DNA of 64,000 nt from a virus. Location of the stretch: the IMG/VR virus record IMGVR_UViG_3300032249_000574, positions 1-64,000 of that record, one strand, 5' to 3'. Position numbers and translations under genes: made by a program. Positions 37,085 to 58,509 of this stretch are shown one piece after another (the first letter of the stretch is position 1; every line of letters begins with the position of its first letter). A model generated the notes under the pieces. That model was given only the letters and a program-made list of their open reading frames with translations. It was not told where the DNA came from and did not search any database.

Positions 37085-38074
37085 ATGGGGGGTAGACGCT
37101 CAGCACCAGCACCCCCACAATTGCAGGCACCAAGAGAAGTACCTCTCTCGGAGACGTTCACAAAATTCTTGGGGCAAGAAGCACAATTCCCAGCTCTCTC
37201 ATCGTTTGCCTCTAACGTAAATAGGCAGTTCCGGCAGGAACTTGAGACGGGTTTGCCCGGAACGCTAGGGGCAACGACCCAGATCAGTACGCTCGTCAAT
37301 CAGTTGCTTCAAGGGGCTGTGCCCGCCGATGTTCAAGCCCAAGTGCAAAGACAAGGGGCTGAACAGGCTATGGCAGTCGGCTTGCCCGCAACTAGTGAAA
37401 TAGCTCGTAATCTTCAAGCTCGTGATTTCGGTTTGACTACGATGGAGCTGATGCAACAGGGGGCAGCTTATACTCCAGGACTTGTAGAGTTATCTAACTT
37501 TTTATCCCCCCAGCAGACACAAAACTATTTGTTCTCGACTGGCCAGTTGCGTGGTGAAGATTTAAAAGCGGCCCAAGATCAAGCTAATGTGGCTAACCAA
37601 AACGCGATTAATAGATACAACTACGATGTGGCGAAAGCTAGAAGTAGCGGTGGTCTATTCGGGACAATCGGTGGTGCTCTCGGTGGAATTGCTGGGTTTG
37701 CTTTGGGTGGGCCTGCTGGTGCTGGCATAGGCTCGGCCTTGGGCGGGAGCATAGGGAGTTTTGCAAGTGGTGGTGGTTTTGCCCCTACCTCAGGAGCCGG
37801 AGCTTTCGGTGGTTTAATCGGCAACGCGGGGTCTGCCATAATGGGCCAAGGTTTTAGTGGTCTACTAGGGGGCGGTGGTCTTTCTGGAGGGGGACAATCA
37901 CTTAGCCCTACGGCTTTTAGTTCTTTAGGCCAAGCTTACACGATGCCAACAGCTTCATTTTTCACGCCTTCAACCCCTTCCGTGTTGAACCCACTTAATA
38001 ATTTCCTTGTCCCGCAATCCAGAGGATCTTACGGAGGTATAGCCCCAATAACTGTAGGAGGTGTCCAATTCTAA
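37085..38074 (+). CDS. Internal virion (ejection) protein with glycine zippers
   Basis: 329 aa. Residues ~1-190 are helical and Gln/Ala-rich. Residues ~195-275 are glycine zippers (GGLFGTIGGALGGIAGFALG) able to insert in membranes. This is the plan of T7 gp14-like ejection proteins that form a pore across the outer membrane. GAGG precedes the ATG. It is the first of three successive ejection-type genes. Confidence 0.75.
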   Translation: MGGRRSAPAPPQLQAPREVPLSETFTKFLGQEAQFPALSSFASNVNRQFRQELETGLPGTLGATTQISTLVNQLLQGAVPADVQAQVQRQGAEQAMAVGLPATSEIARNLQARDFGLTTMELMQQGAAYTPGLVELSNFLSPQQTQNYLFSTGQLRGEDLKAAQDQANVANQNAINRYNYDVAKARSSGGLFGTIGGALGGIAGFALGGPAGAGIGSALGGSIGSFASGGGFAPTSGAGAFGGLIGNAGSAIMGQGFSGLLGGGGLSGGGQSLSPTAFSSLGQAYTMPTASFFTPSTPSVLNPLNNFLVPQSRGSYGGIAPITVGGVQF

Positions 38075-38075
38075 T

Positions 38076-39668
38076 ATGGCCGAGCAATACCAATTACCAC
38101 CACAGTTCCAAGCCCCAAGCATGGCCGAGATTTCCTATCAGTCTGGGGATACTCAAGCCGTGGACAACGCGAACTTTAAAATGTTCACGGATCAGGTTAA
38201 TGCGTACACCAACATTGAGAACGCCAATCGAGCTCAGTCACTTAGGGAAAAACAATTTCAACAACTGGTCGTTCAGAACGACAGAGACTTCGACCTCAGA
38301 CGAGAGAGGCAAGACCAAGATATCCGCAATGGTGATATTACTTACGAGATCAATAAATTTAACTTTGACCGCAACCGAGAGGCTTATAATCAATTGCAAG
38401 AGGCGTGGGCAGAAAGAGATAAATGGACGGGCGCTCTTGATACTTTGATGCCAGATGGGGGGAATAGTCCGACTTATCTTAGAGATAAAGCGAAAGCTTT
38501 CAGACTTTTCGCTAAGAACCCGTCTTCATACGCAGTTCTAAACGAGATATTCAAACCCTATGATGACCAATACAGGGTTTACCAAGCCAATAAGTCTTTA
38601 GAAGACGAGGCAGAAGTTCAGTCTGCTTTTGAGACGGGTCTGCTTGATGGTGAGAAAATAGGAGACCAAGACGCGACTACTTATTTTCGAGACATTATTT
38701 TAAACCGAGAAGCAGACCCAGTCTCGTACGCTGCCGGAATGCGAAATCTCAAACGTATAGCGGGTATAGCGCAAGAAGATGTTGCTCGGCGTCGCCAAGT
38801 TTTGCTTGATGCGGAAACAAGAGGACGATTTGAGGCCGAAGCTTTTGGCGCAGGCGCTACCGATGTCGAATTAAAGATGGAGGGTGGTAAGATTGTTCGT
38901 ACAGCTAAAACTCCTAGACCTCTTTATGGTAGGTCTGGTGTTTCCGGCCCTAACGTTTCGCAAATATCACAAGCCTCCAAAGACTATATTGATGCCGCTG
39001 GAAAAATCGGGGAACAGATAACTGCGCTTGAGAGCGATGCCGCAGGGATGCCGGAAGGGATTGAGAAAACTGCGGCGGAGGCAAAAATCGCAGGATTGCA
39101 AAGACAACAAGAATTTTATTACAGCAAAGCTAAACAAGTTTCTGACTCGGGTGGTTCGACAGCCCCGAGCGGTGCGCCTGTTGAGGCTGGCGCTCGAGGA
39201 GTTTTTGGCGCCCCGAGCTTAAAGGATGTGAAGAAATCAGCTCCGCAGGGAACGCCTCCAACGGTACCCCCTGCAAAAACTTCAGCTCCAACGCCGGCGC
39301 CAGGAGCTTCCCCCCTTGAGTCTACACTTTCTCCTGGGGCTAGGGCAGCACTCGGAGTTGGTGAGGGGGCAGTCGAAGTTGTAGGGGGCGTAGCAGAAAC
39401 AGCAATGAAGAGTATTCCTGGTGTAGCACCCGCTCTTTTAGCAGCAAAAACAATTAAACCCGGCCTAGAGTTTGCAGAGTCTGCTGGGTCGGTAGCCCGA
39501 GAGCTAGCCCAATACTCCAAGAATGTTAATCGAGCGGAGAAAGCGGCAAGGGAGAGAGCTAAAAAAGGTGAAAATTTCCAAGCTGCATTGCTTGATGAGC
39601 AGAGAAAAATTATAGAAGAACTAAGTCAAGGTAAAGAGTCGAATTCACAGGTAACCTCTAAACTCTAA
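38076..39668 (+). CDS. Second internal virion (ejection) protein
   Basis: 530 aa. A long helical, charged N-terminal portion (residues ~20-330, many Gln/Asp/Arg) leads into a Pro/Ala/Gly linker (~370-430) and a last helical segment with a short hydrophobic stretch (~430-465). The start at 38076 follows the previous stop by one base; a GTG at 38061 is less likely. T7 gp15-like proteins have similar helical plans and form the periplasmic tube. No enzyme motif is seen. Confidence 0.65.
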   Translation: MAEQYQLPPQFQAPSMAEISYQSGDTQAVDNANFKMFTDQVNAYTNIENANRAQSLREKQFQQLVVQNDRDFDLRRERQDQDIRNGDITYEINKFNFDRNREAYNQLQEAWAERDKWTGALDTLMPDGGNSPTYLRDKAKAFRLFAKNPSSYAVLNEIFKPYDDQYRVYQANKSLEDEAEVQSAFETGLLDGEKIGDQDATTYFRDIILNREADPVSYAAGMRNLKRIAGIAQEDVARRRQVLLDAETRGRFEAEAFGAGATDVELKMEGGKIVRTAKTPRPLYGRSGVSGPNVSQISQASKDYIDAAGKIGEQITALESDAAGMPEGIEKTAAEAKIAGLQRQQEFYYSKAKQVSDSGGSTAPSGAPVEAGARGVFGAPSLKDVKKSAPQGTPPTVPPAKTSAPTPAPGASPLESTLSPGARAALGVGEGAVEVVGGVAETAMKSIPGVAPALLAAKTIKPGLEFAESAGSVARELAQYSKNVNRAEKAARERAKKGENFQAALLDEQRKIIEELSQGKESNSQVTSKL

Positions 39669-39706: not shown

Positions 39707-42700
39707 ATGGCTGCGATCAACGAGGAAGATCTGCAAGAATACCTCGAAGAACAACGGGCACTTGCCGAAGCCCCCACAGAATTAGATATTCCAGTAGCTC
39801 GAGTTGAGGAGCCTGTAGTAGCAGAAGAGACTCCGGCGCAAAGTTTTACAAACTGGGATTCTTACACCTCGGATCCTGAATACCAGACCCTCGACTCAGC
39901 GGAAAAGCAGGAGTTGTACGACCGGTGGCGTCAATATGCCACAAATTACTTAGCATCAACGGGAAATCTGACTACCAAGGACGATCTGGAATTTACCAAA
40001 AGCTATTTTTCGGGCATTGCAAAACAAGAAGGGCTAAAAGGAGCGGACTACGAACCACCAAGTTATGCTGAACAGTTGATTCAACAAGGCCAGTCTGGTT
40101 ATAGGTCGTTGGAATCTGGTGTTGCGGGATACGGTGCGTTGATTGGTGTAGCAGATACCGAGAGCGCAGCCAATGCAATCGCGGAAAGAAAGCGGCAAGA
40201 GCAGGAAAAATATCTGAGTCCTGAATTCCAAGAGTATAGCAATAAACAACTTGGATTTTTTGGAGCTGTAAAAGAAATCGTAACGAACCCGTTTGATCTA
40301 GCGCTACCTTTTTTAGCGCAGAGCATGGGATCGAACCTTCCAGCTTTGGCCAGTTCACTTGGTATCGCCGGGATAGGTGGAGCGGTTGCTGGGCCAGCAG
40401 GTGCGGCAAGTGCTGGTCTGTATTCCAGCGCTGTCTTGGGTGGGGCAACCGATGCTTTGGTAACCGTTGATCAGTTGATCACGGAAGAAGTTGAAAAGCG
40501 TGGGCTTAGTCCTACGGATCCGAAAGCGATTGCTTCAGTATTAGCTGACCCAGAATTTAAAGCGTACGCCATCAAGTACGCCAATGCCCGTGGCTTGGCG
40601 ATCGGAGCGACTGGACTGGCTGCCTTCGGGCTTGGAAATATTTTAGCCGCCCCCGCCCGTGAAATTGCAAAAGCCGGTGTGCGTGGCGTTGCCAAAGAGG
40701 TTGGGAAACAAATCGGAATTCAAGTTGTCTCAGAACCGGTTGGTGAGGTTGCAGCTCAAGCCGGAGCTCAAGTAGCGACTAGTCAGCCTATTGATATTAA
40801 GGGACGAGAGGTAGCTGAAGAGTTAGTCATTGGCTTACCTATGTCTGGAGTTGAAGCTGCCACGCTGACCTACAAAAATTTGGTTGAAAATAGTGCGCCA
40901 GCCTCCGCAGACCAAGTTCTTTTGGACCAGATTTCAGAACAGAACAGGACAGAATTACAAGGGGCGGCAACAAGAAACGAGGCAGATATTTTTTATAGAA
41001 ATCTTTCGATTGACGAGAAAGTAAAGGTGCTAGAACTTGCCCCCAATGCAATCTTATCCGAAGAACAAAATGTTTTTGACACCTTAACACCCGAAGAAAA
41101 ACAGAGGGTTGATAACGCTCTTAGGGCTACTCAACAGATAACGCAACCTCCGGTGCTTGCTCGGGAGGAAACCCCAGCACCAGCGGGGGAACAACCTCCG
41201 GTGCTTGTTCCTAAAGCGGAGGAGGCTCCAACTGCGGGTGAGCCACCTGTTCTTATCCCCACTCCAACTGCTCCCCCAGCCCCAACCTTGGCTGAAGCTG
41301 AGGCGGAAGCCGCTCAAGTATTTGCCGAACCAATCCCAACTCCTTCGGTTGTTGAGGCAGAGGTTACACCGCAAGAAGTCGTCAGAGAAGTCGGGGCAGA
41401 GGCTGGTTTTCCGGCTCCTGCGCCAGAGACTACGGCTCCGATTTCGGAAGCAGTTCAAGTTCCGCTTGAGCAGGTAGCTCCGGCTACAGCTCAGGTTGTC
41501 GCACAAGAAGAGATTCAAGCTCTAGCTCCCGTGGTTGAGACACTTGCTCCTGCTCCCGTTCCAGTAGCTGAAGCACCAGCTCCGACTCCTGTTGCTGAGA
41601 CACCTGCTCCAAAAACTGAAGCTAAGAATCTGGATCAAAAAATTAAAGAAGCAGCAGATAGCCAAAGAGGGAAGCCAGAAACTACGATGATGGACGTGAC
41701 TATGAAGCTGAAAGAAGAAACAGCATCATCTCCGACATTGATAGATTTATTAGAACATATCGGAGATCTTTCAAATAGAGCTCAGAAAGAAAACGCTATT
41801 GGGAATGTGGATGAGAAGATAGCGAAAGTTGAAAAGTATAGGAAAAATAATTGGGGAACAGTAAAAAGCTCGATTGAACAAGGGTACCGAGAAAATGCAG
41901 AGTACCGAACATTAAAATCTATCCCAGAATTAGTGAGATTGAGTGACAATGTTGGTAAACCAGGTGGGCCGAAAGGATTGTTTGAGGTTTACGAAAAGTT
42001 ACGAAAAGAACATGGGGATAAGATTGAGGCAGAGATTAAGAGGTCAAAAGAAATCGCAAAACAAGAACTTAGAAAGTATGTGGAAGCCCACGAAAAATTT
42101 AATAAGCCAGTAACTAAATTGGGAAAACTAGGGAAGGATGCGGCAATTGCTTTGGGAAACCAAAACTTCAATCAATTGGAAAAGATTGTTTCGGAAATGC
42201 GAGCGTGGGTTGACGAATATAATAACGCCACACCCCAGAGAAGACAAGAAATGTTCCGAGAGCTGGCAGAAAAGCCAACTGCGCCGGTCGTCGAAACCCC
42301 TACTCCCGCACCCGTAACCCCGGCAGTTCAGAAACTTCCTCCTACAAAGAAACAAGTTACAGCTCTTACTAAACTGGGGTATTTACCTGCGGACATCGAA
42401 GGGCTAGATAGAACCCAAGCGAAGGATATTGTTGCCAAACAAACTCCGAAGACCCCAACAGTTGAAGCACCGAAAGAAACAGCACCAGAAGTCGCAGCAG
42501 GAGCCCCAGCTCCCGAAGCTCCCGCCGTCCCGCCAGCCCCAGTCAGCGAACCTACCGCTCCCAAAGCGGAGGAGCGACCGGCTGGAGAAGTTGGTGCACC
42601 TGTGGCACCTCCAGCAGGCGAGCCGACCGCCCCGCAGACCGCAGACGAGAGACTAGCGCAGGCAGAAGAACAATTCAGCAGGGTTGCTGAAACTTTACAA

Positions 42701-45700
42701 ACCAATCTGGCAGGAACCAACATCAAACTAGATGGGGAATCAGTCGCTAGTTTCTTAGGACCTAACCCCAACCCCGAAGTTCAAGCAAGACTGGGAAGGT
42801 TATTAAAGATTCTTAACACCGCACTCGCTAATGTGAAGCGGGAGATTGAAAAGAAAGGTTCTCTGGGTCGCGGTCGCAATCTTAAAGAAGCGTTTACAAA
42901 TATCGAAAGTATTGTCGTCGATCCCAACGCTCGTGGGGGTGGTGGTCTTTATGCCGATCCGAGAAATCCTTATGTGGCTGGCGTTCTTTTCTTAAACCCA
43001 AACCAACTGGCGAGAGTTTTGATGTCGAGCGCTACTACAAATCCTGGTGACTTCTTGGTCAAGATGTTGGAGGAAGAAATTCTGCACATCAGCGACGGCA
43101 AGGCCATGCTTTCGGCTTTCATCCAGAAGTTCCCGAGGGCTAGTAACCCAGAAATCTACGCAAATCCAGAATCTATTCGCAAAGCATTCGAGGAATTCTA
43201 TGACCAAAGCAACAGAGAGATTGAACAAAGTCTTTCAGTTTCCCAGATCAAACAGGTGCTTGGCCCCTATGCCCAGTCTTTAGGCATCGATCTGGAAGGC
43301 AAGTCCAAGGAACAGATTATTGGGGAATTTAATCGTGGCAGACCAGGACGGTTGGCCGAGGAGTATGTTCGAGCGGTTATCCAGTTAAACAACTCCGGCT
43401 CAATCACGGAAGATACGATCAAGTCTCTTGTCACCAAGCCGATTCTCCGGCTCCTCGGGGCTCTCCGCACTTATTTAAAGAGGTTGGTCGGAGATCTTGG
43501 GACTGGTGTCAAAAGTCGCAAAACCATTTTTGATAATAGATACGATGCCATCCAAGACATCTTGGCTAATAAAACTTCCCCCCGTCTGATTAGGGAAGCT
43601 ATCGGCGAGGTAGCTACTGTGCCAAGTAATTTGCTGGCTAGTAGCGCAGACCCAATAGCTCAAGAAGAAGCTAGATTACAACAGCAAAACAATAAAGATT
43701 TGTTCGAAAAGATTGACTACGAGTTTGATGACAGGGTGCGCCTAACCGACAAAGAGATCGAAGACGCGGCGACGGGTAAAAAAGAAAGACGAGGAAGATC
43801 ACGGGCTGCTGTCGAAGCCTCTCTTTCCCGCTCGTTCCCAACTATTCGGGACAGAGATGAAGTGCGGATGGCGGTCAACGACGCTTTGATGGAAGCTATC
43901 GGATCCTATAACGACCAAAAAGGATCTGCGCTTCCAACGTATGTGTATCGTCTGGCTGCTAATAGACTTCTACGGGCCAAGCAGAAAATAGTTAGGGAAA
44001 GGGCGAGAACTCCCTACAGCTTTGATGCTCCTGGATTTTTTAGCGTATCTCCTGAACTTCGTAGTGTGGAGGCTGGGGCTGCGGAAGTTGAACGCCTGAC
44101 TTCGGGTGTTGGCTGGGAACAGATTGAAACAGCCCCGGCAAAACGCAGAAGCCTAACCCCAGAACAAAAAGAAGCCCAGCGTCAAGCGTTGCTTGCCCGT
44201 CCTACCGGGGAAGAAGCAACTAGAGCTGAGATCGCAAAGGAAGAAACTGCCCTTGCTGGACTTGAACAAGCCGTGGAGATCAAGCCCCAAGTCACTTCCT
44301 ACGACGAACCTTTAGAAATGGTAACTCAAACCTTGGCAGACGGGGAAAAAATCTCTGCTGCCGACGCGAAAGTTGCGAATAAAATTACTTCGGACATGCT
44401 GGCTAGCCAGAATGAGTTGACCCAAAAACTTGGGGATGCTCTCGTTAAACTACAGGATAGGACGAACATAAAGAATACAGCTCGCGATGCCGAAATTATC
44501 CAGTATGTGTCAGGGGCTTCGAACAAAACGAGGGCTGAAATATCTGAGCAATACGGGCTGACCAACGACCAGTTCACCAAGATCCGAGACGACCTAATGA
44601 TCAAGCTACGAGACCTCCTTGTTCAAGACGGAATCTCCCGACGGGATGTTCCTGGCAATATCGTCTACGCTTCCTCGATTGACCCGACATACAGCCAAGC
44701 CTTAAACCGAGCCATCTCAACGATCCCGAGAGACATTGCTCTGCGAAAGGCGCTAACGACCCGAGTCATCGAGTCTTATGTGGAAGACGAAGTGATGCGT
44801 AAAGCAAACGCTTTCGTAGATGCCAACTCTCCGGGTAATGATGTTATGTACGCCAAGCGAGTGTTGGATGGGAACAAGGGTATTCCGTTTGAAGAACGCC
44901 TTGTGACCCTTGGTGTTATCGGACGCAGACTGCGGGATGCTGTTCAGCTTATCGACGACAGAATTCTTTTGGACCAGACAACCAAGGGGGGTACTACTCC
45001 GGAGAATCTTGCCCTTCGGGATTATCTAGCCAACAACTTGGGTGAAGCCCTGTCAGCCGGGCAGGAGTTGGCTTCACGGGCAGGACAAGATTTGCGGGCG
45101 ACTCGGATTCTTGCCAACATGTTCCTCCCTTACGCAATCGTAAAGCAGTACACCGGTCCGATTTTTAATCAGCAAAAGGAAGTCCTCGATGCCAAAGAAG
45201 AGATCCGGCGTCTGCGTGAGGATCTGGCCGCACTCCAAGCGGAGTTAGCTGGCACATCATCCAACGGCAGTTTCACGGTTCTACCACCGACCACCCCAGA
45301 TGAAGGACCTAGGATTGTAATTGGCGAGCGCAAGCCTGATCAGCCAGCACCTGAAGGTGAAAGCTTCTACCAGCTCTTAGCTGCTTTCGGAGACATGGCA
45401 CCAACGGCTGACGAAAACTTCTATGAGTATCTTATCCGACTCGGGATTCCGTACGAGGAGTTGGTGGCGAGCATCGAGGGGGTCAAAGCCTCTGCTGCTA
45501 CACCCACCGGACCGAGCAGGGTTCTGCCAGAGGGCTTGCAAAATCTTCCAGCCAGCGAAGCTATCCAGAAATTGCTAGCTATCGATAAAAATTTGTTAAG
45601 CAAACTGATCTCTTTGCGAATCAAGAGTGGGAAAGTTGCTACCAACCAAGATTTGGAAGCCAGCTTCGAGCGTCGCAAGATCGATACGAAAGCCTTGCAA

Positions 45701-48700
45701 GCCAGACCCAATGAGCTCCAGACAGTATTTGATTTCTTTAACTCAACGCTGAGTGAGAAGCCAACCGATCCACAACCAATCGAGAAAGACCCATTACCTC
45801 CGCTTGTTAGGTTGGCCAAGTATGCGGCTGATGCCGTCACGGGGAGAGTCTTAAGATCGCTGGGTGCGGACCAAGCAGGGAAGACCAAGGAACAGCAGAC
45901 TGCGTTTGCTAAACTGGAGAGCGAGGTTCGCAAGCTGGTCAACGCTCAGTTCAAGCAAGAAACAAATCCGACACAGGTTTCGGCGGAGGATACCCGTTCA
46001 GTTGAGCAACGACTGCTGGATGTAGTAAAGCGGGTAGAGCTCTCAGAACAAGTCTTCAACCAGGTTCAGGGTAATCTTCGATCCCAGCTTGCCGAGGATA
46101 CCAGACGGCGTGAAGCCAAGGCTGAAGGCCAGTTGACTAGCGGAGAGAGAAAACGTTTGGAAGAAATAGCTGCAAAGACATTTAACGCCAATGCTGTTCG
46201 GTCGTTGGACAGTTTGCTACGCCAAGTTGTCGACTTTAAGGCCGAGGCTCGCAAACATTTGACCCAACGGGGTGCAAGCGTTCTGTCGTTAACTAACATC
46301 GTCAAGGAGAAGTTTACGAACTTCACCGAGAAACAAGCTGAATCGCTAGCCAAACTAATCGCCGTAAGATACGGCGACTTGGTCAAGAAAGCCGGTGAAC
46401 GTCAACTTGCTAACATTGTTAGGAGAGTCGGGGATAAGGGAGAGCAGGCGCCCAAGAAAAGTATTGATCAGATGCTTGAGCTTATCAACCTCGGAGCATT
46501 TGATGACGAAAAATTTTATAATGTAATCGCTGAGCGCTATACGGATCTTCCATCTTGGGACCCCGAAGTTGTGGCAGAGATCAAAAAACGGGCTGACAAA
46601 ATTCAAAGACTGACCCCCGACTCTGACCAAGCAGCAACTGAGTCAATTTCTTTGCAAACGTACATTGCTAACGAGATGTATAAACAACAGAAGGGCTGGG
46701 ACAAACTTGGTCGGCAACTGGATGTTGCGTCGGCTCTATGGAAAGCTGGGGTTTTATCGGGTCCTCCGACTCAGATTGTAAACTTGGGAGCTACCCACCT
46801 CAACGTATTGATGGAGCTATTTACCGACGCCAATGCTTACGCTAAGGCATCAAAGAAGAAAGGTCTCGAAGGAAAGTTTGGGGACTACTTGGCGACAGCC
46901 CTCTCCGCATACCTCGAAGCTGCTGGTCGGATGGGTGTGGAACAAGCGGGTGACGCAGTAGCGACTGGGCTTAGCCGATTCAGAAACGAAAAGAAAATCG
47001 AACTCAACCCCTTGGAAACTTTCAAGTTTGACAGCAACAAGCCGTGGTCTATCAACAACTACATTGCGGCTTGGAAGCTCGTTGGTCGAGCTATGGCTGC
47101 GGCTGACACGTACAACTCGGTCGTTGCGAACGAGGCAAAAACCCGCATGGCTGCTAGGTACTCTTTACTACAGCAAGGGCTGACCGCGGAACAAACCACT
47201 AAGAAAGCAGAAGATATCTTTAACAAATCGAACCCCGAAATAATTAACATTAGGCAACAGGTGGCGCAGGAAGAAGCTAAGGGAGAGTTCGGGAGTCTCG
47301 CGGGTCTCCAACCTAAGACTCAGTCCTACCGAGAAATGAACCGCAAGATTGAGGCTGGCAAACGTCGTCGGTTTAACCAGCTTCGGGACAAGTTCATCGA
47401 GAAAGAAGCTGGATTTGCGAAAGGCCAGATGGACGACATCCGAGAGTTTTCCCAGTTTGCAACATTCAACAACACCCCTACCGGTTTAATTGGGTATTTG
47501 GGAGGGGCGGTCATAGGCGGAATCGCTGGGAAAACTAAGTTACTCACACCATTTGTAGCGTTCCCTCGCACAATTGCCAACATCATCAACTCCGGTTTGA
47601 ACTACACTCCGTATGGTTGGTTGCGGGCCAACGGATTCTCCTTGGGGAATATCAGCGGAGCAATTAGAGATTCGGAATACCGGTTCAAAAAACCTGAACC
47701 AGGTAGCGTCGAGTACTATCAGTTACAGACTAAAGCTTTTTACGGATCGCTCGTTGCCTTCACCTTAATTGGGCTTGCCATGAAAGACATCGACAAGGAC
47801 TGGGACGAGGCTTTCTTTGCTGTAACGGGTCGAGGCCCGACAGACCAGAATCAAAAAGAGCAGTTGATGCAAGCAGGATGGCGAGAGAACTCGGTTAAAA
47901 TCGGACCATTGAAGTTCCGTCATACAGATTTCCCAGGACTTAACACAATTTTTGGGGCGATGGCTTTGGTGTCTGACCAATACCGGTACGGCAAACTGAG
48001 TGAGAAAGACTTTATTACTTTGGCATCTACTGCTGCTTTGTCTGTCGCAAATTCAATCTTCGATAAGCAATTGTTGTCTGGCATGAAGACGTTGTTCGAC
48101 GCCGTCTCTGATAGGGGGGATGCATCTGATAAAGCTAAGAAGATTATTCAAAGCTATTCGGCTGGGTTCCTTAACCCCGGTATTGCTCGTTGGACAACCC
48201 GTACTTTCGACATCGGTCCGGACGGTAAGGTCGGCGTAACCGATTATAAAGAACTTAACGCAACCTCTGGGGGGTTCTTGATCGGGCTAACCCCATTAGC
48301 AGTAGTGGCGGGTAAACCAAAACTCAATCGGCTTGGTGAAGAGATTAGAGAATATCCTTGGGCAGCGACTGAAAAACGGTTCGGTGTATTGCCGACCATG
48401 GCACCCCACCCTGTCTTTACCCCGTTGGTTCGCGGTGGTTTATTTGTGCCAGGAGCCAGTATCAATCTGAAGATCAACGCAAGAGAGAACGGCAAACCCA
48501 TCCAACGTAAGATGGATAGGGAAGAGTATTACAACTACTCTAAGTATAACGGAGAATACCTCAAGCGAATCCTTACCCCTGCTAGGGCTGAGTCCCTTGC
48601 TAGACTGGCTAGAACCAATCAAGATGCTGCGCAGAAACAGTTGGAAAAAATGGCGGACCGAGCCAAGGACTACGCTAAAATCCGCATCGAAGCTGAGATC

Positions 48701-48715
48701 AGACGCAAGCGGTGA
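39707..48715 (+). CDS. Giant ejection protein (3002 aa) with sigma-70-like region 2 and 4 domains
   Basis: Domains in order: a membrane-active helical part at ~190-400 (SLGIAGIGGAVAGPAGAASA); Pro/Ala-rich linkers at ~480-690 and ~855-985; a zincin-like domain near 1020-1135 whose HExxH position reads EEILH (1123-1127), so the first His is lost; a sigma region 2-like block at ~1367-1440 (DRDEVRMAVNDALMEAIGSY, then TYVYRLAANRLL and SFDAP); SYDEPLE at 1531-1537; a region 4-like block with helix-turn-helix at ~1608-1635 (TRAEISEQYGLTNDQFTKIR); long coiled coils to ~2250; and a C-terminal domain as in large phage polyvalent proteins. It lacks T7/N4 RNA polymerase motifs. By place and size it is a gp16-like protein ejected into the host. 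Delivery of a sigma activity is my inference. Confidence 0.75.
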   Translation: MAAINEEDLQEYLEEQRALAEAPTELDIPVARVEEPVVAEETPAQSFTNWDSYTSDPEYQTLDSAEKQELYDRWRQYATNYLASTGNLTTKDDLEFTKSYFSGIAKQEGLKGADYEPPSYAEQLIQQGQSGYRSLESGVAGYGALIGVADTESAANAIAERKRQEQEKYLSPEFQEYSNKQLGFFGAVKEIVTNPFDLALPFLAQSMGSNLPALASSLGIAGIGGAVAGPAGAASAGLYSSAVLGGATDALVTVDQLITEEVEKRGLSPTDPKAIASVLADPEFKAYAIKYANARGLAIGATGLAAFGLGNILAAPAREIAKAGVRGVAKEVGKQIGIQVVSEPVGEVAAQAGAQVATSQPIDIKGREVAEELVIGLPMSGVEAATLTYKNLVENSAPASADQVLLDQISEQNRTELQGAATRNEADIFYRNLSIDEKVKVLELAPNAILSEEQNVFDTLTPEEKQRVDNALRATQQITQPPVLAREETPAPAGEQPPVLVPKAEEAPTAGEPPVLIPTPTAPPAPTLAEAEAEAAQVFAEPIPTPSVVEAEVTPQEVVREVGAEAGFPAPAPETTAPISEAVQVPLEQVAPATAQVVAQEEIQALAPVVETLAPAPVPVAEAPAPTPVAETPAPKTEAKNLDQKIKEAADSQRGKPETTMMDVTMKLKEETASSPTLIDLLEHIGDLSNRAQKENAIGNVDEKIAKVEKYRKNNWGTVKSSIEQGYRENAEYRTLKSIPELVRLSDNVGKPGGPKGLFEVYEKLRKEHGDKIEAEIKRSKEIAKQELRKYVEAHEKFNKPVTKLGKLGKDAAIALGNQNFNQLEKIVSEMRAWVDEYNNATPQRRQEMFRELAEKPTAPVVETPTPAPVTPAVQKLPPTKKQVTALTKLGYLPADIEGLDRTQAKDIVAKQTPKTPTVEAPKETAPEVAAGAPAPEAPAVPPAPVSEPTAPKAEERPAGEVGAPVAPPAGEPTAPQTADERLAQAEEQFSRVAETLQTNLAGTNIKLDGESVASFLGPNPNPEVQARLGRLLKILNTALANVKREIEKKGSLGRGRNLKEAFTNIESIVVDPNARGGGGLYADPRNPYVAGVLFLNPNQLARVLMSSATTNPGDFLVKMLEEEILHISDGKAMLSAFIQKFPRASNPEIYANPESIRKAFEEFYDQSNREIEQSLSVSQIKQVLGPYAQSLGIDLEGKSKEQIIGEFNRGRPGRLAEEYVRAVIQLNNSGSITEDTIKSLVTKPILRLLGALRTYLKRLVGDLGTGVKSRKTIFDNRYDAIQDILANKTSPRLIREAIGEVATVPSNLLASSADPIAQEEARLQQQNNKDLFEKIDYEFDDRVRLTDKEIEDAATGKKERRGRSRAAVEASLSRSFPTIRDRDEVRMAVNDALMEAIGSYNDQKGSALPTYVYRLAANRLLRAKQKIVRERARTPYSFDAPGFFSVSPELRSVEAGAAEVERLTSGVGWEQIETAPAKRRSLTPEQKEAQRQALLARPTGEEATRAEIAKEETALAGLEQAVEIKPQVTSYDEPLEMVTQTLADGEKISAADAKVANKITSDMLASQNELTQKLGDALVKLQDRTNIKNTARDAEIIQYVSGASNKTRAEISEQYGLTNDQFTKIRDDLMIKLRDLLVQDGISRRDVPGNIVYASSIDPTYSQALNRAISTIPRDIALRKALTTRVIESYVEDEVMRKANAFVDANSPGNDVMYAKRVLDGNKGIPFEERLVTLGVIGRRLRDAVQLIDDRILLDQTTKGGTTPENLALRDYLANNLGEALSAGQELASRAGQDLRATRILANMFLPYAIVKQYTGPIFNQQKEVLDAKEEIRRLREDLAALQAELAGTSSNGSFTVLPPTTPDEGPRIVIGERKPDQPAPEGESFYQLLAAFGDMAPTADENFYEYLIRLGIPYEELVASIEGVKASAATPTGPSRVLPEGLQNLPASEAIQKLLAIDKNLLSKLISLRIKSGKVATNQDLEASFERRKIDTKALQARPNELQTVFDFFNSTLSEKPTDPQPIEKDPLPPLVRLAKYAADAVTGRVLRSLGADQAGKTKEQQTAFAKLESEVRKLVNAQFKQETNPTQVSAEDTRSVEQRLLDVVKRVELSEQVFNQVQGNLRSQLAEDTRRREAKAEGQLTSGERKRLEEIAAKTFNANAVRSLDSLLRQVVDFKAEARKHLTQRGASVLSLTNIVKEKFTNFTEKQAESLAKLIAVRYGDLVKKAGERQLANIVRRVGDKGEQAPKKSIDQMLELINLGAFDDEKFYNVIAERYTDLPSWDPEVVAEIKKRADKIQRLTPDSDQAATESISLQTYIANEMYKQQKGWDKLGRQLDVASALWKAGVLSGPPTQIVNLGATHLNVLMELFTDANAYAKASKKKGLEGKFGDYLATALSAYLEAAGRMGVEQAGDAVATGLSRFRNEKKIELNPLETFKFDSNKPWSINNYIAAWKLVGRAMAAADTYNSVVANEAKTRMAARYSLLQQGLTAEQTTKKAEDIFNKSNPEIINIRQQVAQEEAKGEFGSLAGLQPKTQSYREMNRKIEAGKRRRFNQLRDKFIEKEAGFAKGQMDDIREFSQFATFNNTPTGLIGYLGGAVIGGIAGKTKLLTPFVAFPRTIANIINSGLNYTPYGWLRANGFSLGNISGAIRDSEYRFKKPEPGSVEYYQLQTKAFYGSLVAFTLIGLAMKDIDKDWDEAFFAVTGRGPTDQNQKEQLMQAGWRENSVKIGPLKFRHTDFPGLNTIFGAMALVSDQYRYGKLSEKDFITLASTAALSVANSIFDKQLLSGMKTLFDAVSDRGDASDKAKKIIQSYSAGFLNPGIARWTTRTFDIGPDGKVGVTDYKELNATSGGFLIGLTPLAVVAGKPKLNRLGEEIREYPWAATEKRFGVLPTMAPHPVFTPLVRGGLFVPGASINLKINARENGKPIQRKMDREEYYNYSKYNGEYLKRILTPARAESLARLARTNQDAAQKQLEKMADRAKDYAKIRIEAEIRRKR

Positions 48716-49510: not shown

Positions 49511-50440
49511 ATGGCTGATACATTCACAGACGCAATTGATGCACGATCAGAGGGACGTCCGGTGTTTTCGCAGGAAGGTCTTGATATTCTCAGGACGTTC
49601 GAAGGCTTTCGGCCAGACGCTTACTATGACTTAGATAACAAGAAGAAAAAAGGAAAGCTCACCGTGGGTTATGGGTTCACGGACAACGATATCCCAGACT
49701 TGCGTCCGGGCTATACGATTGACAGAGGGAGAGCGGAACAAATGTTGCCAGATCTTATCAACAGGAAGTACGGGCCGAGCGTTCTGGATAGCGTTAAAGT
49801 TCCATTGAATGACCAGCAATACAGCGCACTTACAAGTCTCGTCTACAACATCGGGCCAACAAACTTTGGGAAAAGCACGTTACTCAAGAAACTTAACTCC
49901 GGAGACTTTGAGGGAGCGGCCGAACAATTTAAAGTATGGAACAAAGCAGGCGGTAAAACTTTAGAGGGTTTAGTCAAAAGACGTGGGGCAGAAGAAGCCT
50001 TGTTCAAGGGAGATACCCAAACTTTAGGGGCGATACTAGAGCAACAGAAATTTGGAACGCCTAGACTAGGTAAAGACTTATCGGAAGCTGCAACACCTAT
50101 GCCTGACTTCCCAGCGATGACTCCCGAAGAGACAGGAGCCGCAGCGGCTGAGAAGATAGCCCAAGAAGCTGGGATGACACCAGAAGAACGTGGAGTTGCA
50201 GCGGCAGAGAAGATCGCTAAAGGTATCGAACAAACGGCTACGGAAAAAACAGTTGAGGATCTTAAACCTGACCAGTTTGATATGGAACAATTCACAAAAC
50301 TGTTGGGCGGTGCTAAGAGCAAGAAAGACGAAGAGGAACAGACGATACCATTCGCAAGTAGCGTAAGCTTTGGTGGTAATCTCCCGAGTCTCCCATCGGG
50401 TCTACCTAGAAACTCGGGGCTTGGGCGGAGGACTAGCTGA
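49511..50440 (+). CDS. GH24 lysozyme with C-terminal repeat extension
   Basis: 309 aa. The N-terminal ~165 residues are a T4-type muramidase: catalytic Glu in TFEGFRPDAY (E31), Asp near 40, and LTVGYG with Thr near 51. The rest is an extension with two copies of a helix repeat (MTPEETGAAAAEKIA and MTPEERGVAAAEKIA at ~205-240) and a Ser/Gly/Pro end. No signal peptide is seen. Because it follows the ejection genes and carries a long tail, a virion-mounted lysozyme that opens the wall at entry is as likely as an endolysin. AGG lies upstream; its stop shares a base with the next ATG. Confidence 0.9.
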   Translation: MADTFTDAIDARSEGRPVFSQEGLDILRTFEGFRPDAYYDLDNKKKKGKLTVGYGFTDNDIPDLRPGYTIDRGRAEQMLPDLINRKYGPSVLDSVKVPLNDQQYSALTSLVYNIGPTNFGKSTLLKKLNSGDFEGAAEQFKVWNKAGGKTLEGLVKRRGAEEALFKGDTQTLGAILEQQKFGTPRLGKDLSEAATPMPDFPAMTPEETGAAAAEKIAQEAGMTPEERGVAAAEKIAKGIEQTATEKTVEDLKPDQFDMEQFTKLLGGAKSKKDEEEQTIPFASSVSFGGNLPSLPSGLPRNSGLGRRTS

Positions 50441-51852: not shown

Positions 51853-52036
51853 GGTATTTGAATACTTGCTTCTTGCCGGGCTTGGCAGTTGCTTTCTTCT
51901 TGCCCCAATCAATAGACTGATAGTTCTTATAGAACCTATCAGACATGTTCCGAGGGGAATCGCCTTTACCGTTTTGCATAGACTCGAATGTAACATCGCC
52001 CCGTTGCCGAAGCGAGTCATAACTAATGTTACTCAT
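51836..52036 (-). CDS. Hypothetical basic protein (66 aa)
   Basis: Not recognised. Hydrophilic, with a Lys-rich second half (WGKKKATAKPGKKQVFKYPS). It is the last gene of the right leftward arm. Its ATG overlaps the previous stop as ATGA. A competing frame on the same strand (51829-52020) lacks such coupling. Confidence 0.6.
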   Translation of the reverse strand: MSNISYDSLRQRGDVTFESMQNGKGDSPRNMSDRFYKNYQSIDWGKKKATAKPGKKQVFKYPSPKG

Positions 52037-52629
52037 GCGGACTCCTCACTTACTACGCTGTCGAATGGTTGCTCTTCAGCGTGATGGGTTTGGGTTTGCA
52101 CTCGTAGCCACGAAGGCTTCTGTAGGGTTGCCTTGGTGAAGGAGACTTCTTCCCAGAGAATGTTATTGCCTGGGACGCAAGTGATCCTACCACAGTCTAG
52201 AGCGATGAAGTGATGGCTCTTGGTTTGACTTGGTTCCAAGCTATAGCCGTCGCCATAAGGCTCACAAGTAAACATGTAGCTACCTGTTAACCATTTCTGA
52301 CGTGAAGCTATCCACACGGAACAATCAAGCTCCCGTAAGTAATCATATTCGATACCCGTTGCGTCGTAACCGAAGCAGTCCCAACGCTGGGCATCACGAA
52401 GTTCCCATGGGAATGTCTGACCAGCTTCATCGTGGCACAACGCCGAGAGGGGCAGGCCACGATAAAGAGCACCACACTTTAACAATACGGTGCAACCCCA
52501 AGCTCGATGGGGGACAGTCGTCAGACCAAACCAAACGGCTTCCTCCCAACCTTGAACTTGGCCTTGGCTCATCACGGATTTATCAACAGTTACGTAGTGG
52601 TGACGAGGAATATTAAGGGCGTGTTTCAT
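52033..52629 (-). CDS. Hypothetical protein, Cys/Trp/His-rich (198 aa)
   Basis: Not recognised. It is rich in Cys, Trp and His with a beta-strand look (WGCTVLLKCGALYRGLPLSA; CGRITCVPGNNILWEEV). No signal sequence. Overlaps the next gene as ATGA. The composition may reflect a metal-binding or barrel-like fold; nothing more can be said. Confidence 0.7.
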   Translation of the reverse strand: MKHALNIPRHHYVTVDKSVMSQGQVQGWEEAVWFGLTTVPHRAWGCTVLLKCGALYRGLPLSALCHDEAGQTFPWELRDAQRWDCFGYDATGIEYDYLRELDCSVWIASRQKWLTGSYMFTCEPYGDGYSLEPSQTKSHHFIALDCGRITCVPGNNILWEEVSFTKATLQKPSWLRVQTQTHHAEEQPFDSVVSEESA

Positions 52630-53077
52630 ATTCGAATACGTCTTCCTTTATAAGAGCCTTCAGCTCAGACGACTGGGAGTCGTAGATCTTAGGACCGACG
52701 GTTGAGAAGTTATCATTGAGACTACCTATGCAAGCCTCTTCTCTATCAGAGAAGGGGATCTGAACATAGATCGACTCGTTGAATATCGAGTGGGTGTTCG
52801 TATCTTCTGTGCTCAAGGTTCCCAGTATCTCACCGCTAGTTGATACAACAACAGGACCATCGTTGATCCATTGTGCATTCTCTGTCACGGAACTTAGGAG
52901 GGAGACCGTTGAGAAGTCTCCCGTCTTGGTTCCGGATTCGTTACTGACCGAATCAATCAATGCTTCGTTGGCGTTAAGGATACCGAGGTATCCATCTCCA
53001 TCTTCCGCATAGCATGAGGCCCATGCGAAAGAACCAAGTATCAATCCCCTAATAAGTCTGCCGGTTGTAGTTGCCAT
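52613..53077 (-). CDS. Predicted exported protein (154 aa)
   Basis: The N-terminus (RLIRGLILGSFAWASCYA) is a signal peptide with a likely cleavage at CYA-ED; it might also be read as a lipoprotein with the Cys at about 22. The mature part is acidic and beta-rich. An early exported phage protein could act in the periplasm against superinfection or on the envelope. The family is not recognised. It overlaps both neighbours by 17 and 37 bases. Confidence 0.65.
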   Translation of the reverse strand: MATTTGRLIRGLILGSFAWASCYAEDGDGYLGILNANEALIDSVSNESGTKTGDFSTVSLLSSVTENAQWINDGPVVVSTSGEILGTLSTEDTNTHSIFNESIYVQIPFSDREEACIGSLNDNFSTVGPKIYDSQSSELKALIKEDVFEYETRP

Positions 53078-53358
53078 ATTTCTTCATCTCCATTTGTATC
53101 CTCGAAGTCTTGGAACTCGTTAAGAGCATTGCTCAAGACATCAAGGGCTTCGTTGAATTTATTATCAGGACGATCTTCGTCCAAGATAATTCCCTCTGGG
53201 TCGTTAAGAACAGCGCATCGAACGCCGCTCTCTCGTTCCAGTTCTTCCAAAGCCGGGACCAAACACTTTTCATTGTAGGTCTCGGACTCTCTGATCGCCT
53301 GTTGTTTGGCAAGCGTGATGGCTGCCATCGCGATCTCAATGGCCTCGGTCGTTGTCAC
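53041..53358 (-). CDS. Hypothetical helical acidic protein (105 aa)
   Basis: Not recognised. A helical N-terminus (AIEIAMAAITLAKQQAIRES) and a very acidic second half (EDRPDNKFNEALDVL, FQDFEDTNGDEE). Strongly acidic small phage proteins are sometimes DNA mimics; that is only a possibility here. It starts by overlapping the upstream stop. Confidence 0.65.
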   Translation of the reverse strand: MTTTEAIEIAMAAITLAKQQAIRESETYNEKCLVPALEELERESGVRCAVLNDPEGIILDEDRPDNKFNEALDVLSNALNEFQDFEDTNGDEEIWQLQPADLLGD

Positions 53359-53546
53359 GCCTTGGCCTCCCGCATGATTGCCTCGTGAACCTCGCTGGCC
53401 AACGGAGCCTGCATGGCTTCCATCAACGCAGTCGGGGCGTCATACTCCATGTTAACTACAATGTTATCTCGCACGGTTCCGTTGTAAGGAACGATGTACG
53501 AGTCGTCTGCAAACACATATAACAATTCACCTTTAACTTCTTTCAT
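53355..53546 (-). CDS. Hypothetical protein (63 aa)
   Basis: Not recognised. The ATG at 53546 is chosen because GGAGG lies eight bases upstream and the ATG shares a base with the previous stop (TAATG); a GTG at 53561 would place the start before that site. It has a small beta front (VKGELLYVFADDSYIVPYNG) and a helical Ala/Glu end. Confidence 0.65.
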   Translation of the reverse strand: MKEVKGELLYVFADDSYIVPYNGTVRDNIVVNMEYDAPTALMEAMQAPLASEVHEAIMREAKA

Positions 53547-53761
53547 TAGCATGTCCTCCACATTCCGATCACAGCCCCGTCCCTTGCGGTCACCAGACCT
53601 TTCGAGTTGAACGTGATCTTTCTTCGGTTAGTTGTCCGCCCAGTCTTGATGCTGGTCATCTTGTTGAACCAGTCATACGCGACCTCAAGGCTTTTGAATT
53701 TGAAGACCTTGTGTTCTTTCGACCAAGGGTCTTGTAGATATGTTACAAAGTTATACTTCAT
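53546..53761 (-). CDS. Hypothetical small alpha/beta protein (71 aa)
   Basis: Not recognised. It reads as a compact domain (FKFKSLEVAYDWFNKMTSIK, then RRKITFNSKGLVTARDG). AAAGGA gives a good start and the ATG overlaps the previous stop as ATGA. Similar small 'F.S...A..WF' domains recur in this arm (for example 55532-55786 and 63528-63671), which may hint at a common origin. Confidence 0.65.
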   Translation of the reverse strand: MKYNFVTYLQDPWSKEHKVFKFKSLEVAYDWFNKMTSIKTGRTTNRRKITFNSKGLVTARDGAVIGMWRTC

Positions 53762-53997
53762 TCTTGTCCTTTCTGTTCCGGTCCAAGCTCAGTCCATAGC
53801 GGGAACAGCTCGCGCTGTTTACCTGCTGGCCAAGGATGGGCGACGACTATCCCGCTGACCTGTCGAGCTTCCTTGAAGACGTCTTCCGATTCCGTGTAGC
53901 CACGGATGTTATCGGCTTTCAGTCCAGGCATTAGCTCTGTCCAAGTCTCGTCGACTGTTAAGTACAAACCGTCCGAACGTTTGATTGCATATGTCAT
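53758..53997 (-). CDS. Hypothetical protein (79 aa)
   Basis: Not recognised. Sequence MTYAIKRSDGLYLTVDETWT suggests a beta front. It is preceded by AGGAGCAACACTATG, the same 5' leader as its upstream neighbour at 54287 and the RecB-like nuclease at 10481. Confidence 0.65.
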   Translation of the reverse strand: MTYAIKRSDGLYLTVDETWTELMPGLKADNIRGYTESEDVFKEARQVSGIVVAHPWPAGKQRELFPLWTELGPEQKGQE

Positions 53998-54014
53998 AGT
54001 GTTGCTCCTTTCAA

Positions 54015-54287
54015 TTATAGTACGAGTAAGTATCGCTTCATTACTTTGAAGTGGTCTTCAGATACTCTCTGATATGACCCAGCGTAAGTTATAACTTCAC
54101 CGTTATGCCAGAAGCCACCATCTTCTTCGGTTTTCGATGAGTCTTCACCGTACCAATCTCGAGCGACTTTCTTGGCGTATTCTTCTGGGCTTCCTAGAGT
54201 TTTGAATAAATACTTTTGATTGTATTCATACTCTCCGTTGTGTTCTTCAACTTCCCCTAAGTAATAATGTATCTTGGGTTTCTTCAT
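54015..54287 (-). CDS. Hypothetical acidic protein (90 aa)
   Basis: Not recognised. Glu/Tyr-rich (YYLGEVEEHNGEYEYNQKYL), soluble, beta-strand look. The start carries the shared AGGAGCAACACTATG leader. It overlaps the preceding gene's stop by four bases. Confidence 0.65.
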   Translation of the reverse strand: MKKPKIHYYLGEVEEHNGEYEYNQKYLFKTLGSPEEYAKKVARDWYGEDSSKTEEDGGFWHNGEVITYAGSYQRVSEDHFKVMKRYLLVL

Positions 54288-54502
54288 AGTGTTGCTCCTG
54301 TCTTGTGTTCGTATACCATTGCGTTGAGGAGACCAATCACCTTGGCCTCGAAGGTGTCGATGAATTCACCGCTCACCCTAGATGGTGGAGCTTTCAATGG
54401 GGCAATGCCCATCTCCATCCTCGTCTTGTTACGCTCCTTGAACTTAGCACTAGCCAAGTCCAACGCCGATCGTTTGACCGCAGCTTTGTTAAGTAGACTC
54501 AT
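54284..54502 (-). CDS. Hypothetical helical protein (72 aa)
   Basis: Not recognised. The start at 54502 is fixed by an ATGA overlap with the methyltransferase-like gene and by AAGGA upstream; an in-frame Met at 54535 lies inside that gene and is not used. It is helical with a basic front (KAAVKRSALDLASAKFKERN). Confidence 0.6.
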   Translation of the reverse strand: MSLLNKAAVKRSALDLASAKFKERNKTRMEMGIAPLKAPPSRVSGEFIDTFEAKVIGLLNAMVYEHKTGATL

Positions 54503-55104
54503 GCCGTTATCCTTTCTGGTTGTAAGGCTCCCCATTGGGAAGCCATTGCTTTTGCTATACCATCGAAGGTCTTTGCTCTGTTCTTCTGTCTGTCCTTGCC
54601 ACCCTTGTTAAACCAGTTGCCAGGAATCTTGCTACTCTGTGGGTTCTTAACAGTCCGTGTCGGCTTCAGCGGTGGCAGACCTTTGAGCCATAGGCATGTC
54701 CGTTTCTGCACGGGATGCCCGAACTGGTAGGGTTGAATAACTTGGGTGTTGGGTAGCAGATGGAAGATCTTGGATGGCGTAGGGTTCTCGATGGCGATCA
54801 TAGGAATGTCAGCATTCCATAGAGTCATAAAGAACGCACGTCCTTCCATGCCCAGCTTGAGTCTAGCCTTGTTCAGCTTGCCCTTTGGATACAGGAACCT
54901 AGCCCCTGCGTTGGACAAGTAGGTACAAGGTGGATGGGCAATCATTAAGTCCCATCCGTTATCAAGCACATCCCTCACGTCCCCTTGATAGTGGGGGCCG
55001 GGGACATCCGTGGGTAGGATGTCACAGCTCATGGCCTCGTGGCCCCGAGCAATGAAAGCGTCACGGACTGTACCGGAGTACTCGCAAGCTACTAATACTT
55101 TCAT
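54499..55104 (-). CDS. Cytosine-methyltransferase-like protein, copy A
   Basis: 201 aa. LVACEYSGTVRDAFIARGHE is a SAM-binding motif I-like start, AHPPCTYLSNAG matches the catalytic PPC/PC motif IV of C5-cytosine methyltransferases, and AIENPTP fits the ENV-type motif VI. It is much shorter than a full C5 enzyme and lacks an obvious target recognition domain, so activity is uncertain. A paralogue lies 0.7 kb upstream (55783-56439), separated by three small genes. It could modify phage DNA against restriction, or be a degenerate relative. Confidence 0.75.
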   Translation of the reverse strand: MKVLVACEYSGTVRDAFIARGHEAMSCDILPTDVPGPHYQGDVRDVLDNGWDLMIAHPPCTYLSNAGARFLYPKGKLNKARLKLGMEGRAFFMTLWNADIPMIAIENPTPSKIFHLLPNTQVIQPYQFGHPVQKRTCLWLKGLPPLKPTRTVKNPQSSKIPGNWFNKGGKDRQKNRAKTFDGIAKAMASQWGALQPERITA

Positions 55105-55310
55105 GCTCTGTACCACCCAGCAAATTTACTGAGGTAAGTTGCATCATTTGCGACGTGGCCATTAGCCTTCTTCTTCATCCAAACTCTTGCCCTACACTCC
55201 TCTCCATTCTCTTTCGCAGAGTCTAGATCAACAACGTAGAGCGTTGTTCCTTTGGGTAGTTTATACCCGCTGACTATTCCGTCTTCAATATAAACAATCA
55301 ATGGTTTCAT
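55101..55310 (-). CDS. Hypothetical protein between the methyltransferase-like genes (69 aa)
   Basis: Not recognised. A beta front (PLIVYIEDGIVSGYKLPKGT) and a basic middle (RARVWMKKKANGHV). AAGGAGAACACAAG gives an excellent ribosome site. Its stop overlaps the start of copy A as ATGA. Confidence 0.65.
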   Translation of the reverse strand: MKPLIVYIEDGIVSGYKLPKGTTLYVVDLDSAKENGEECRARVWMKKKANGHVANDATYLSKFAGWYRA

Positions 55311-55322
55311 CTTGTGTTCTCC

Positions 55323-55535
55323 TTAAGTAATGATCGCTCGGTTGTCTTGGATGACGATGCTACGGGCATCGCCCCATACAACGGCACGAGGTTGTGCCTT
55401 GCGTTTGCGATCGTGTGTTGCGACACGACAATCGAACCCTTGAATCGGAACGCATTGACCTTGGTAGTGGATTGTCCACCACACATCCTTGCGTCGCTGA
55501 GACAAGGGTTTGTTGAAGTGATAAAAGAATCTCAT
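55323..55535 (-). CDS. Hypothetical basic protein (70 aa)
   Basis: Not recognised. Rich in Arg, Trp and Gln (RRKDVWWTIHYQGQCVPIQG) with a beta look. AAAGGA lies at good distance from the ATG, which overlaps the previous stop. No motif. Confidence 0.6.
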   Translation of the reverse strand: MRFFYHFNKPLSQRRKDVWWTIHYQGQCVPIQGFDCRVATHDRKRKAQPRAVVWGDARSIVIQDNRAIIT

Positions 55536-55786
55536 TGGATTAGTCCTTTCGGGTAATAGGTTTTAGCTTCGTCAATCGAATCGAAGTGGCCAAGGAACTC
55601 TCGGTTCCCATAGCTTGTGATGTCTGTGCCTTGCTTTGCCTTGGAGTGATACTTGTAAACATCACAGCCTTTATACTCGAGCCGTTCGTATGCTGGCTCA
55701 CCTGAAGAATCGGGTGGGCGAACATCCCATTGCGGTTCGATGGCTGTGTATGTTCTCTGTGCGAATACCTTGAAGTTTCTTTTCAT
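55532..55786 (-). CDS. Hypothetical protein with FDSIDEAKTYY end (84 aa)
   Basis: Not recognised. The C-terminus (LGHFDSIDEAKTYYPKGLIQ) resembles a short alpha/beta domain that recurs in phage mini-proteins. The ATG overlaps the copy B methyltransferase stop as ATGA. Confidence 0.6.
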   Translation of the reverse strand: MKRNFKVFAQRTYTAIEPQWDVRPPDSSGEPAYERLEYKGCDVYKYHSKAKQGTDITSYGNREFLGHFDSIDEAKTYYPKGLIQ

Positions 55787-56439
55787 GGTCTACCATCCTG
55801 TCCTACCCAGCCCATGCCGGCGTAGTCGTTCTGATCTTCGTACTCTTCAAGGTCACCCCATTGCTTTGCCATAGCCTTGGCAATTCCCTTGAAGGTTGTA
55901 CTCCGAATCTTCCAACGATCTTTCCCCGGCGCTTGCCAATGAATCCGTTGCTGGACTTCGATGGGCAACGCATCGGTCTCATCCTTGAGATCGGTGGTTG
56001 GCACAAGCTTGGGCAATCCCTTGAGCCACAAGCCAGTAGCTTTCTTTTCTTTGTGGCCGAACATCCAAGGCTGGATGATCTGGTCGGGGCCACGACCAAT
56101 GATGGTCTTGGCATACTTGTGCATGATGGGGTTCTCGACGGCGATGTAGGGGATGTCGGCCTCAAGCAACTGCTTGAAGAACTCGGCACCAGCTTTCATC
56201 TGGTCTCGTCGTCCCTCTTTCTTATCCAACCAGCACACACCCGAGTTGCATAGGTAAGTGCAGGGCGGATGAGCAACCATCAAGTCCCATCCTTGGTCAA
56301 TAATATCGAACACACTACCTTGGTAGTGCGGTCCTTTCTTATCGGTCGGGAGAAGATCGCACGACGTAGCGTCGTGTCCTCTTGCGATGAACGCATCCCG
56401 AACCGTACCAGAATACTCGCAAGCGATAAGTACTTTCAT
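55783..56439 (-). CDS. Cytosine-methyltransferase-like protein, copy B
   Basis: 218 aa. Same motifs as copy A at the same places: LIACEYSGTVRDAFIARGHD, AHPPCTYLCNSG, AVENPIM, and TGLWLKGLPKL near residue 140. Residue identity to copy A is high in the first 60 residues and falls later, so the duplication is not recent. GGAAG precedes the ATG. Divergence in the second half could reflect different targets. Confidence 0.75.
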   Translation of the reverse strand: MKVLIACEYSGTVRDAFIARGHDATSCDLLPTDKKGPHYQGSVFDIIDQGWDLMVAHPPCTYLCNSGVCWLDKKEGRRDQMKAGAEFFKQLLEADIPYIAVENPIMHKYAKTIIGRGPDQIIQPWMFGHKEKKATGLWLKGLPKLVPTTDLKDETDALPIEVQQRIHWQAPGKDRWKIRSTTFKGIAKAMAKQWGDLEEYEDQNDYAGMGWVGQDGRP

Positions 56440-56441
56440 TG

Positions 56442-58490: not shown

Positions 58491-58509
58491 TGTCTATCCT
58501 CTCTTTCTT

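Follow-up and report, generated by a model that had tools for sequence, protein, structure and literature searches.

N4-type phages (Schitoviridae) carry the means of starting transcription in a giant ejection protein of ~3500 residues, with which they inject an RNA polymerase (PMC12633501). A transcription component is likewise fused to a giant virion protein in the Thermus phage P23-45, where a polymerase is located on the tape measure protein of a siphovirus (PMC10770324). Polyvalent proteins are giant multidomain proteins which are encoded among virion genes and contain swappable effectors, including the ADP-ribosyltransferase domain ART-PolyVal, and peptidase-like motifs; processing by a peptidase and a jump-start of transcription were proposed for them (Iyer et al. 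2017, PMC5512222). Bacterial sigma factors direct RNA polymerase to the sites at which transcription starts. The phage sigma factors SPO1 gp2.21 (231 aa) and Dp-1 gp69 (204 aa) are small proteins encoded by ordinary standalone genes.

The module described here resembles these two sigma factors in having region 2 before region 4 and in the loss of the QE pair of region 2.2, and SPO1- and Dp-1-type sigma factors are its nearest sequence relatives in phage genomes. In contrast to them, it is buried in an ejection protein of ~3000 aa. It was found in the window, by which we mean the whole stretch of 64,000 nucleotides that was analysed (positions 1 to 64,000 of the IMG/VR record IMGVR_UViG_3300032249_000574). 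The initial annotation had proposed that sigma-70 regions 2 and 4 are contained in a 3002-aa protein, and the Pfam matches to region 2 in seven genomes, tblastn, hhalign and Foldseek now agree on a relationship to sigma factors. Whereas N4 injects the polymerase itself, only a homologue of the specificity subunit and no polymerase domain (PF00940) was found in this phage, and the carrier is a podovirus ejection protein, unlike the siphovirus tape measure of P23-45. The word sigma is absent from the main text of the paper on polyvalent proteins (PMC5512222), to whose domain list the module is an addition, and the term sigma factor is absent from a review of ejection proteins (PMC8954989). A virion-borne sigma factor, of which the initial annotation was not aware, was likewise not found in a targeted search confined to open-access literature. 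The kind of arrangement, a virion-delivered transcription component within a giant ejection protein, is known, but the sigma module as this component appears to be new. The LASSIDP borders and the swapped cargo beside the module in the relatives are new as well.

The giant protein and its relatives

The open reading frame of the carrier (39707..48715, plus strand) encodes a giant polyvalent-type ejection protein of 3002 aa with the sigma module. Its homologs of 2905-3312 aa were found in six relatives from IMG/VR, and the member set thus comprised seven genomes (the window, L110, L111, L116, L115, L108 and L109/L096). The giant protein of L110 has 2905 aa and is 59% identical to that of the window. 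When only the module of the window served as the query, IMG/VR and phage genomes yielded no match, and the relatives were reached through the neighbouring virion protein phrog_1645 and then via alignments of the C-terminal region of the carrier. The phrog_1645 protein of the window is 63% identical to its counterpart in Puniceispirillum phage HMO-2011. This virion structural protein (19989-21293) shares 63-70% identity with proteins of cyanomyoviruses and of the podovirus HMO-2011, and such an exchange across morphotypes is striking. A further HMO-2011 match (E 0.0014) was discarded because it falls on an annotated DnaB-type helicase. The sibling genome G045 (65,938 bases) has a nearly identical terminal repeat of ~154 bases. 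Genomes of this group are therefore about 65.8 kb long, and the 64,073-base record of the window is probably close to complete.

Residues 2614-2816 of the carrier gave a profile match to phrog_6651 (internal virion protein, E 1.5e-12). They lie within a conserved C-terminal ejection region (residues 1661-2990; 44687..48676, plus strand), which in a tblastn search led to AP013539 and its 'internal core protein' and had no relative in the bacterial genomes searched. The gene order is tail-fibre genes, giant open reading frame, endolysin; the endolysin gene (49511..50440, plus strand; phrog_7, E 7.4e-47) is located just downstream of the carrier and marks the virion/lysis block. Two open reading frames directly upstream (37085-38074 and 38061-39668, both on the plus strand), which had no family match above noise, are candidates for companion ejection proteins by their position only. 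The phrog_6651 homology and the gene position support the assignment of the carrier of this uncultured phage as an ejected internal virion protein, which had been suggested in the initial annotation. The protein would be packaged and would then enter the host with the DNA.

Homology to sigma-70 factors

The region 2 homolog comprises residues 1363-1444 (43793..44038, plus strand). PF04542 (Sigma70_r2) gave exactly one match per genome in all seven genomes, always within the giant open reading frame. The match exceeded the curated cut-off in three genomes, all of them relatives (best E 5.8e-8 for one genome), whereas the window's own copy remained below it (E 1.4e-4 with this genome alone searched). 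The match in the window covers residues 1393-1427; its E was 0.14 when the entire protein was searched and 0.017 when a cropped piece of it was used. An alignment of the module profile by hhalign with seven genuine sigma factors (RpoD, FliA, RpoS, RpoH, RpoE, SPO1 gp2.21 and Dp-1 gp69) gave a probability of 97.8 and a score of 66 for region 2, compared with a mean of 9.9 and a maximum of 16.6 for 100 column shuffles. The Pfam assignment of region 2 thus holds for the three relatives and is backed by hhalign, but it is not reached by the window's copy on its own. The helices of the AF2 model in this region are formed by residues 1364-1376, 1383-1400 and 1409-1434, and the peptides first noticed in region 2 were confirmed at positions 1365 (SRAAVEASL), 1382 (DRDEVRM), 1406 (GSALPTYVY) and 1438 (SFDAP).

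A variable linker with an acidic stretch follows (residues 1445-1584; 44039..44458, plus strand). Its conservation in the alignment is low and so is most of its pLDDT, and its final helix (1551-1585) runs into region 4. The order expected of a sigma factor, region 2 before region 4, was confirmed; the sigma-like spacing was not, since the two regions are separated by a long stretch that varies in length (roughly 100-150 residues) and region 3 is not recognisable. The peptide SYDEPLE (1531), which had been listed with region 4, is not conserved among the relatives.

The region 4-like helix-turn-helix comprises residues 1585-1643 (44459..44635, plus strand), in which the peptides TRAEISEQ (1608) and DLMIKLRDLL (1629) were located. 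Its hhalign score against the seven sigma factors was 29.1 (probability 80.5), and 200 shuffles gave a mean of 9.0 and a maximum of 15.7; one outlier occurred among the shuffles with gap-rich columns kept and none on a repeat without those columns. The AF2 helices are 1592-1601, 1609-1616 and 1620-1640. Residues ~1556-1644 of the window were aligned weakly with region 4 of RpoS by phmmer (E 0.58). The assignment of region 4 is supported by the hhalign comparison with shuffles but not by the Pfam region 4 model PF04545, which had no match in any of the seven genomes with positive controls.

The L111 module retrieved 15 tblastn hits from 50,697 phage records (best E 1e-4), all 15 on phage sigma-factor genes or their unannotated SPO1-type counterparts, in SPO1-type Bacillus phages and the Streptococcus phages Dp-1 and MS1. 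Nine of the 11 hits of the seven-member profile among PDB sequences were sigma factors, among them WhiG (0.0034), FliA (0.023) and SigB, in which region 2 and region 4 were aligned in the expected succession. The DNA-binding domain of AdeR, which ranked second, matches region 4 about equally well. The AF2 model built from the seven-member alignment is of modest confidence (mean pLDDT 59.6), and its best helices (pLDDT ~70-86) are those of both sigma regions and those preceding region 2. Each of the best 50 Foldseek matches listed from the PDB was the sigma chain of an RNA polymerase complex, with alignments covering most of the sigma chain; the best match had E 6.6e-3 and a probability of 0.93, and no hit reached E 0.001. 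The 47 best Foldseek rows obtained with a four-sequence AF2 model were likewise sigma chains, and the top two viral matches bore the annotations of a polymerase subunit and of a sigma subunit, respectively. The TM-scores were low and the rmsd high, which a long flexible linker would lead one to expect. Sigma-family matches were thus obtained by both hhalign and, among the best 50 listed, Foldseek, the kinds of profile and structure comparison suggested in the initial annotation.

At the level of sequence comparison, the signal of the window alone was confirmed to be real but weak and unconvincing by itself, and the homology is settled by the relatives. Residues ~1363-1643 are almost certainly homologous to sigma-70 factors, with region 2, a long linker and a region 4-like helix-turn-helix. 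That a helical, charged stretch of a giant protein rich in coiled coils mimics the pattern by chance, with no kinship to sigma factors, could be argued from the weak scores of the window (Pfam E 0.017-0.14, phmmer E 0.58). This explanation is highly improbable and was effectively refuted by the concurrence of seven genomes, tblastn, profile-profile comparisons with shuffles and the structure search.

Core-contact residues and selection

For the residue register, the sequences were aligned without gaps, and the conserved glycine (RpoD G424, G1406 in the window) served as the anchor. The positions D403, Q406, E407, N409 and M413 (RpoD numbering), which we take to be the core-binding positions of region 2.2, correspond to E1385, M1388, A1389, N1391 and M1395. 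Of the core-binding residues, N409 and M413 are therefore kept and D403 is replaced by E, but Q406 and E407 are lost. The threonine and tyrosine at T429 and Y430 are found as T1411 and Y1412, and W433/W434 correspond to R1415/L1416; neither the QE pair nor the WW pair of region 2.3 is thus conserved in the window. The core-contact positions read E-V-E-S-L in L110 and L111. The loss which might speak against core binding is shared by genuine phage sigma factors, as the QE pair is also absent from SPO1 gp2.21 (E-F-Y-S-V) and Dp-1 gp69 (D-I-E-S-I).

The comparison of L111 with L116 gave dN/dS of 0.026 for region 4 and 0.37 for the swapped insert, and dN of 0.10 with saturated dS for region 2. The dN/dS values for L108 and L109 were 0.08 (region 2) and 0.035 (region 4), and that of the domain preceding the module was 0.03 in two pairs of relatives. 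The module is under purifying selection about as strong as that on the neighbouring domains. This maintenance argues for a function.

Border motifs and swapped cargo

A LASSIDP-type motif flanks the module on both sides in the window, L111, L116, L110, L115, L108 and L109. The copies in the window are LASSADP on the N-terminal side (residues 1310-1316; 43634..43654, plus strand), a candidate processing site or hinge, and YASSIDP on the C-terminal side (residues 1654-1660; 44666..44686, plus strand), which is the insertion point of cargo in the relatives. Where an insert follows the module, an additional copy is found past that insert. The motif was confined to the module borders in the three genomes searched (2/2, 2/2 and 3/3 occurrences in ~52,000-57,000 six-frame residues each). 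The copies use differing codons and are therefore kept at the protein level; the differing codons also make DNA-level duplication an unlikely source. The motif may be a release site, perhaps cut by a virion or polyvalent peptidase, or a hinge.

The cargo at the C-terminal border differs among the members. The insert of L109 is ART-PolyVal (ADP-ribosyltransferase, E 1.3e-15), those of L108 and L115 are segments bearing HExxH, and L111 and L116 have other segments inserted; the window and L110 have no insert. The conserved domain before the module (residues ~1013-1295; 42743..43591, plus strand) contains an EExxH motif (residue 1123; 43073-43087) in all seven members. It had no hit in a Pfam search, and the motif provides a zincin-like lead. 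Gene context and differing cargo show the hallmark of polyvalent proteins, a giant multidomain protein of the virion block with swappable effectors. By its build (border motifs, swapped cargo beside the module and peptidase-like motifs), the carrier is therefore a polyvalent-type protein.

Transcription context

A T7-type RNA polymerase was absent from all seven records according to PF00940, the only Pfam model used, which detected the control AP013539 at 1.3e-67. The initial statement that no phage RNA polymerase is visible in the window therefore holds for the T7-type model. No second Sigma70_r2 gene was detected by the PF04542 search in any of the seven records. Matches to sigma-70-like promoters at both ends of the window were fewer than in shuffles and are only suggestive, and a dyad/9-mer search for the phages' own promoter motif in three genomes yielded nothing above shuffles. 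Phage DSL-LC04 carries an 85-aa gene annotated as 'RNA polymerase sigma-G factor' which adjoins primase (L086:31404-31661).

Proposed role of the module

Judging from homology, gene position and selection, a working sigma module is probably delivered from the virion. The giant ejection protein would be packaged and would enter the host along with the DNA, and the module would either stay attached to the ejection apparatus at its cytoplasmic end or be released by a cut in or close to the LASSIDP borders. It would then bind the core of the host RNA polymerase, with region 2 on the β′ clamp helices and region 4 on the β flap, and the polymerase bound by it would be steered to phage promoters on the first-entering DNA. 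The phage would in this way achieve with the host enzyme what N4 achieves with an injected one. The T7 genome is pulled in by the host polymerase, and tethering could let the recruited polymerase pull in the genome in a T7-like manner. Delivery from the virion, core binding and promoter recognition by the module and its cleavage are what we infer here. The unconserved Q406/E407 and W433/W434 positions, the negative PF04545 result and the AdeR match in region 4, the long linker, the modest AF2 and Foldseek values and the negative search for a promoter motif speak against this role. We propose only tentatively that the virion-delivered sigma, displayed or cut out at the LASSIDP borders, might reprogram the host RNA polymerase to transcribe the incoming phage genome without any newly made phage protein.

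Two other roles compatible with sigma kinship have to be considered. A sigma factor captured long ago may now only bind DNA or serve as a scaffold within the ejection apparatus, with no polymerase binding or promoter choice. Such reuse would agree with the position of the module inside an ejection protein, with the loss of the region 2.2 QE pair and the region 2.3 WW pair and with gp16, an ejection protein of T7 that is reported to bind DNA independently of sequence (PMC8954989). We nevertheless consider it rather unlikely because all seven members have retained region 2 and region 4 in this order, with low dN/dS, and because the QE pair is missing from SPO1 gp2.21 and Dp-1 gp69 too. It is still less probable that the module is a decoy or remodeller which binds the host core, displaces the host sigma factor and shuts down host transcription. 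In favour of this role, polyvalent proteins bear host-modifying cargo, and the module of the relative L109 is adjoined by an ADP-ribosyltransferase, an activity that T4 Alt directs at RNA polymerase (PMC5512222). The core-binding part alone would suffice for a decoy, however, and the region 4-like, DNA-reading helix-turn-helix is retained.

If the delivery of a working sigma module is true, it would represent a third solution beside the injected polymerase (N4) and the polymerase-modifying enzyme (T4 Alt), in which only the specificity subunit is supplied. This would explain how a podovirus that lacks an RNA polymerase can enforce the use of its promoters as soon as infection begins. The promoter question is directly testable with a fragment of ~35-40 kDa, and the border motifs may release cargo from polyvalent proteins.

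Other features of the genome and its distant relatives

A degenerate sigma module was also considered in the distant relatives L097-L107 but was dropped because profile tests gave no support. The ejection proteins of L097, L098 and L099 (and L100-L107) have up to 4181 aa and contain a helicase-like segment (GPGTGKT, DEQH), another unusual virion cargo, together with an EExxH/HExxH motif. The window itself carries two neighbouring homologs of the phrog_757 DNA methyltransferase on the minus strand (54499-55116 and 55783-56439), and homologs of both RIIA and RIIB are encoded at 57645-60765 in this podovirus of about 65 kb.
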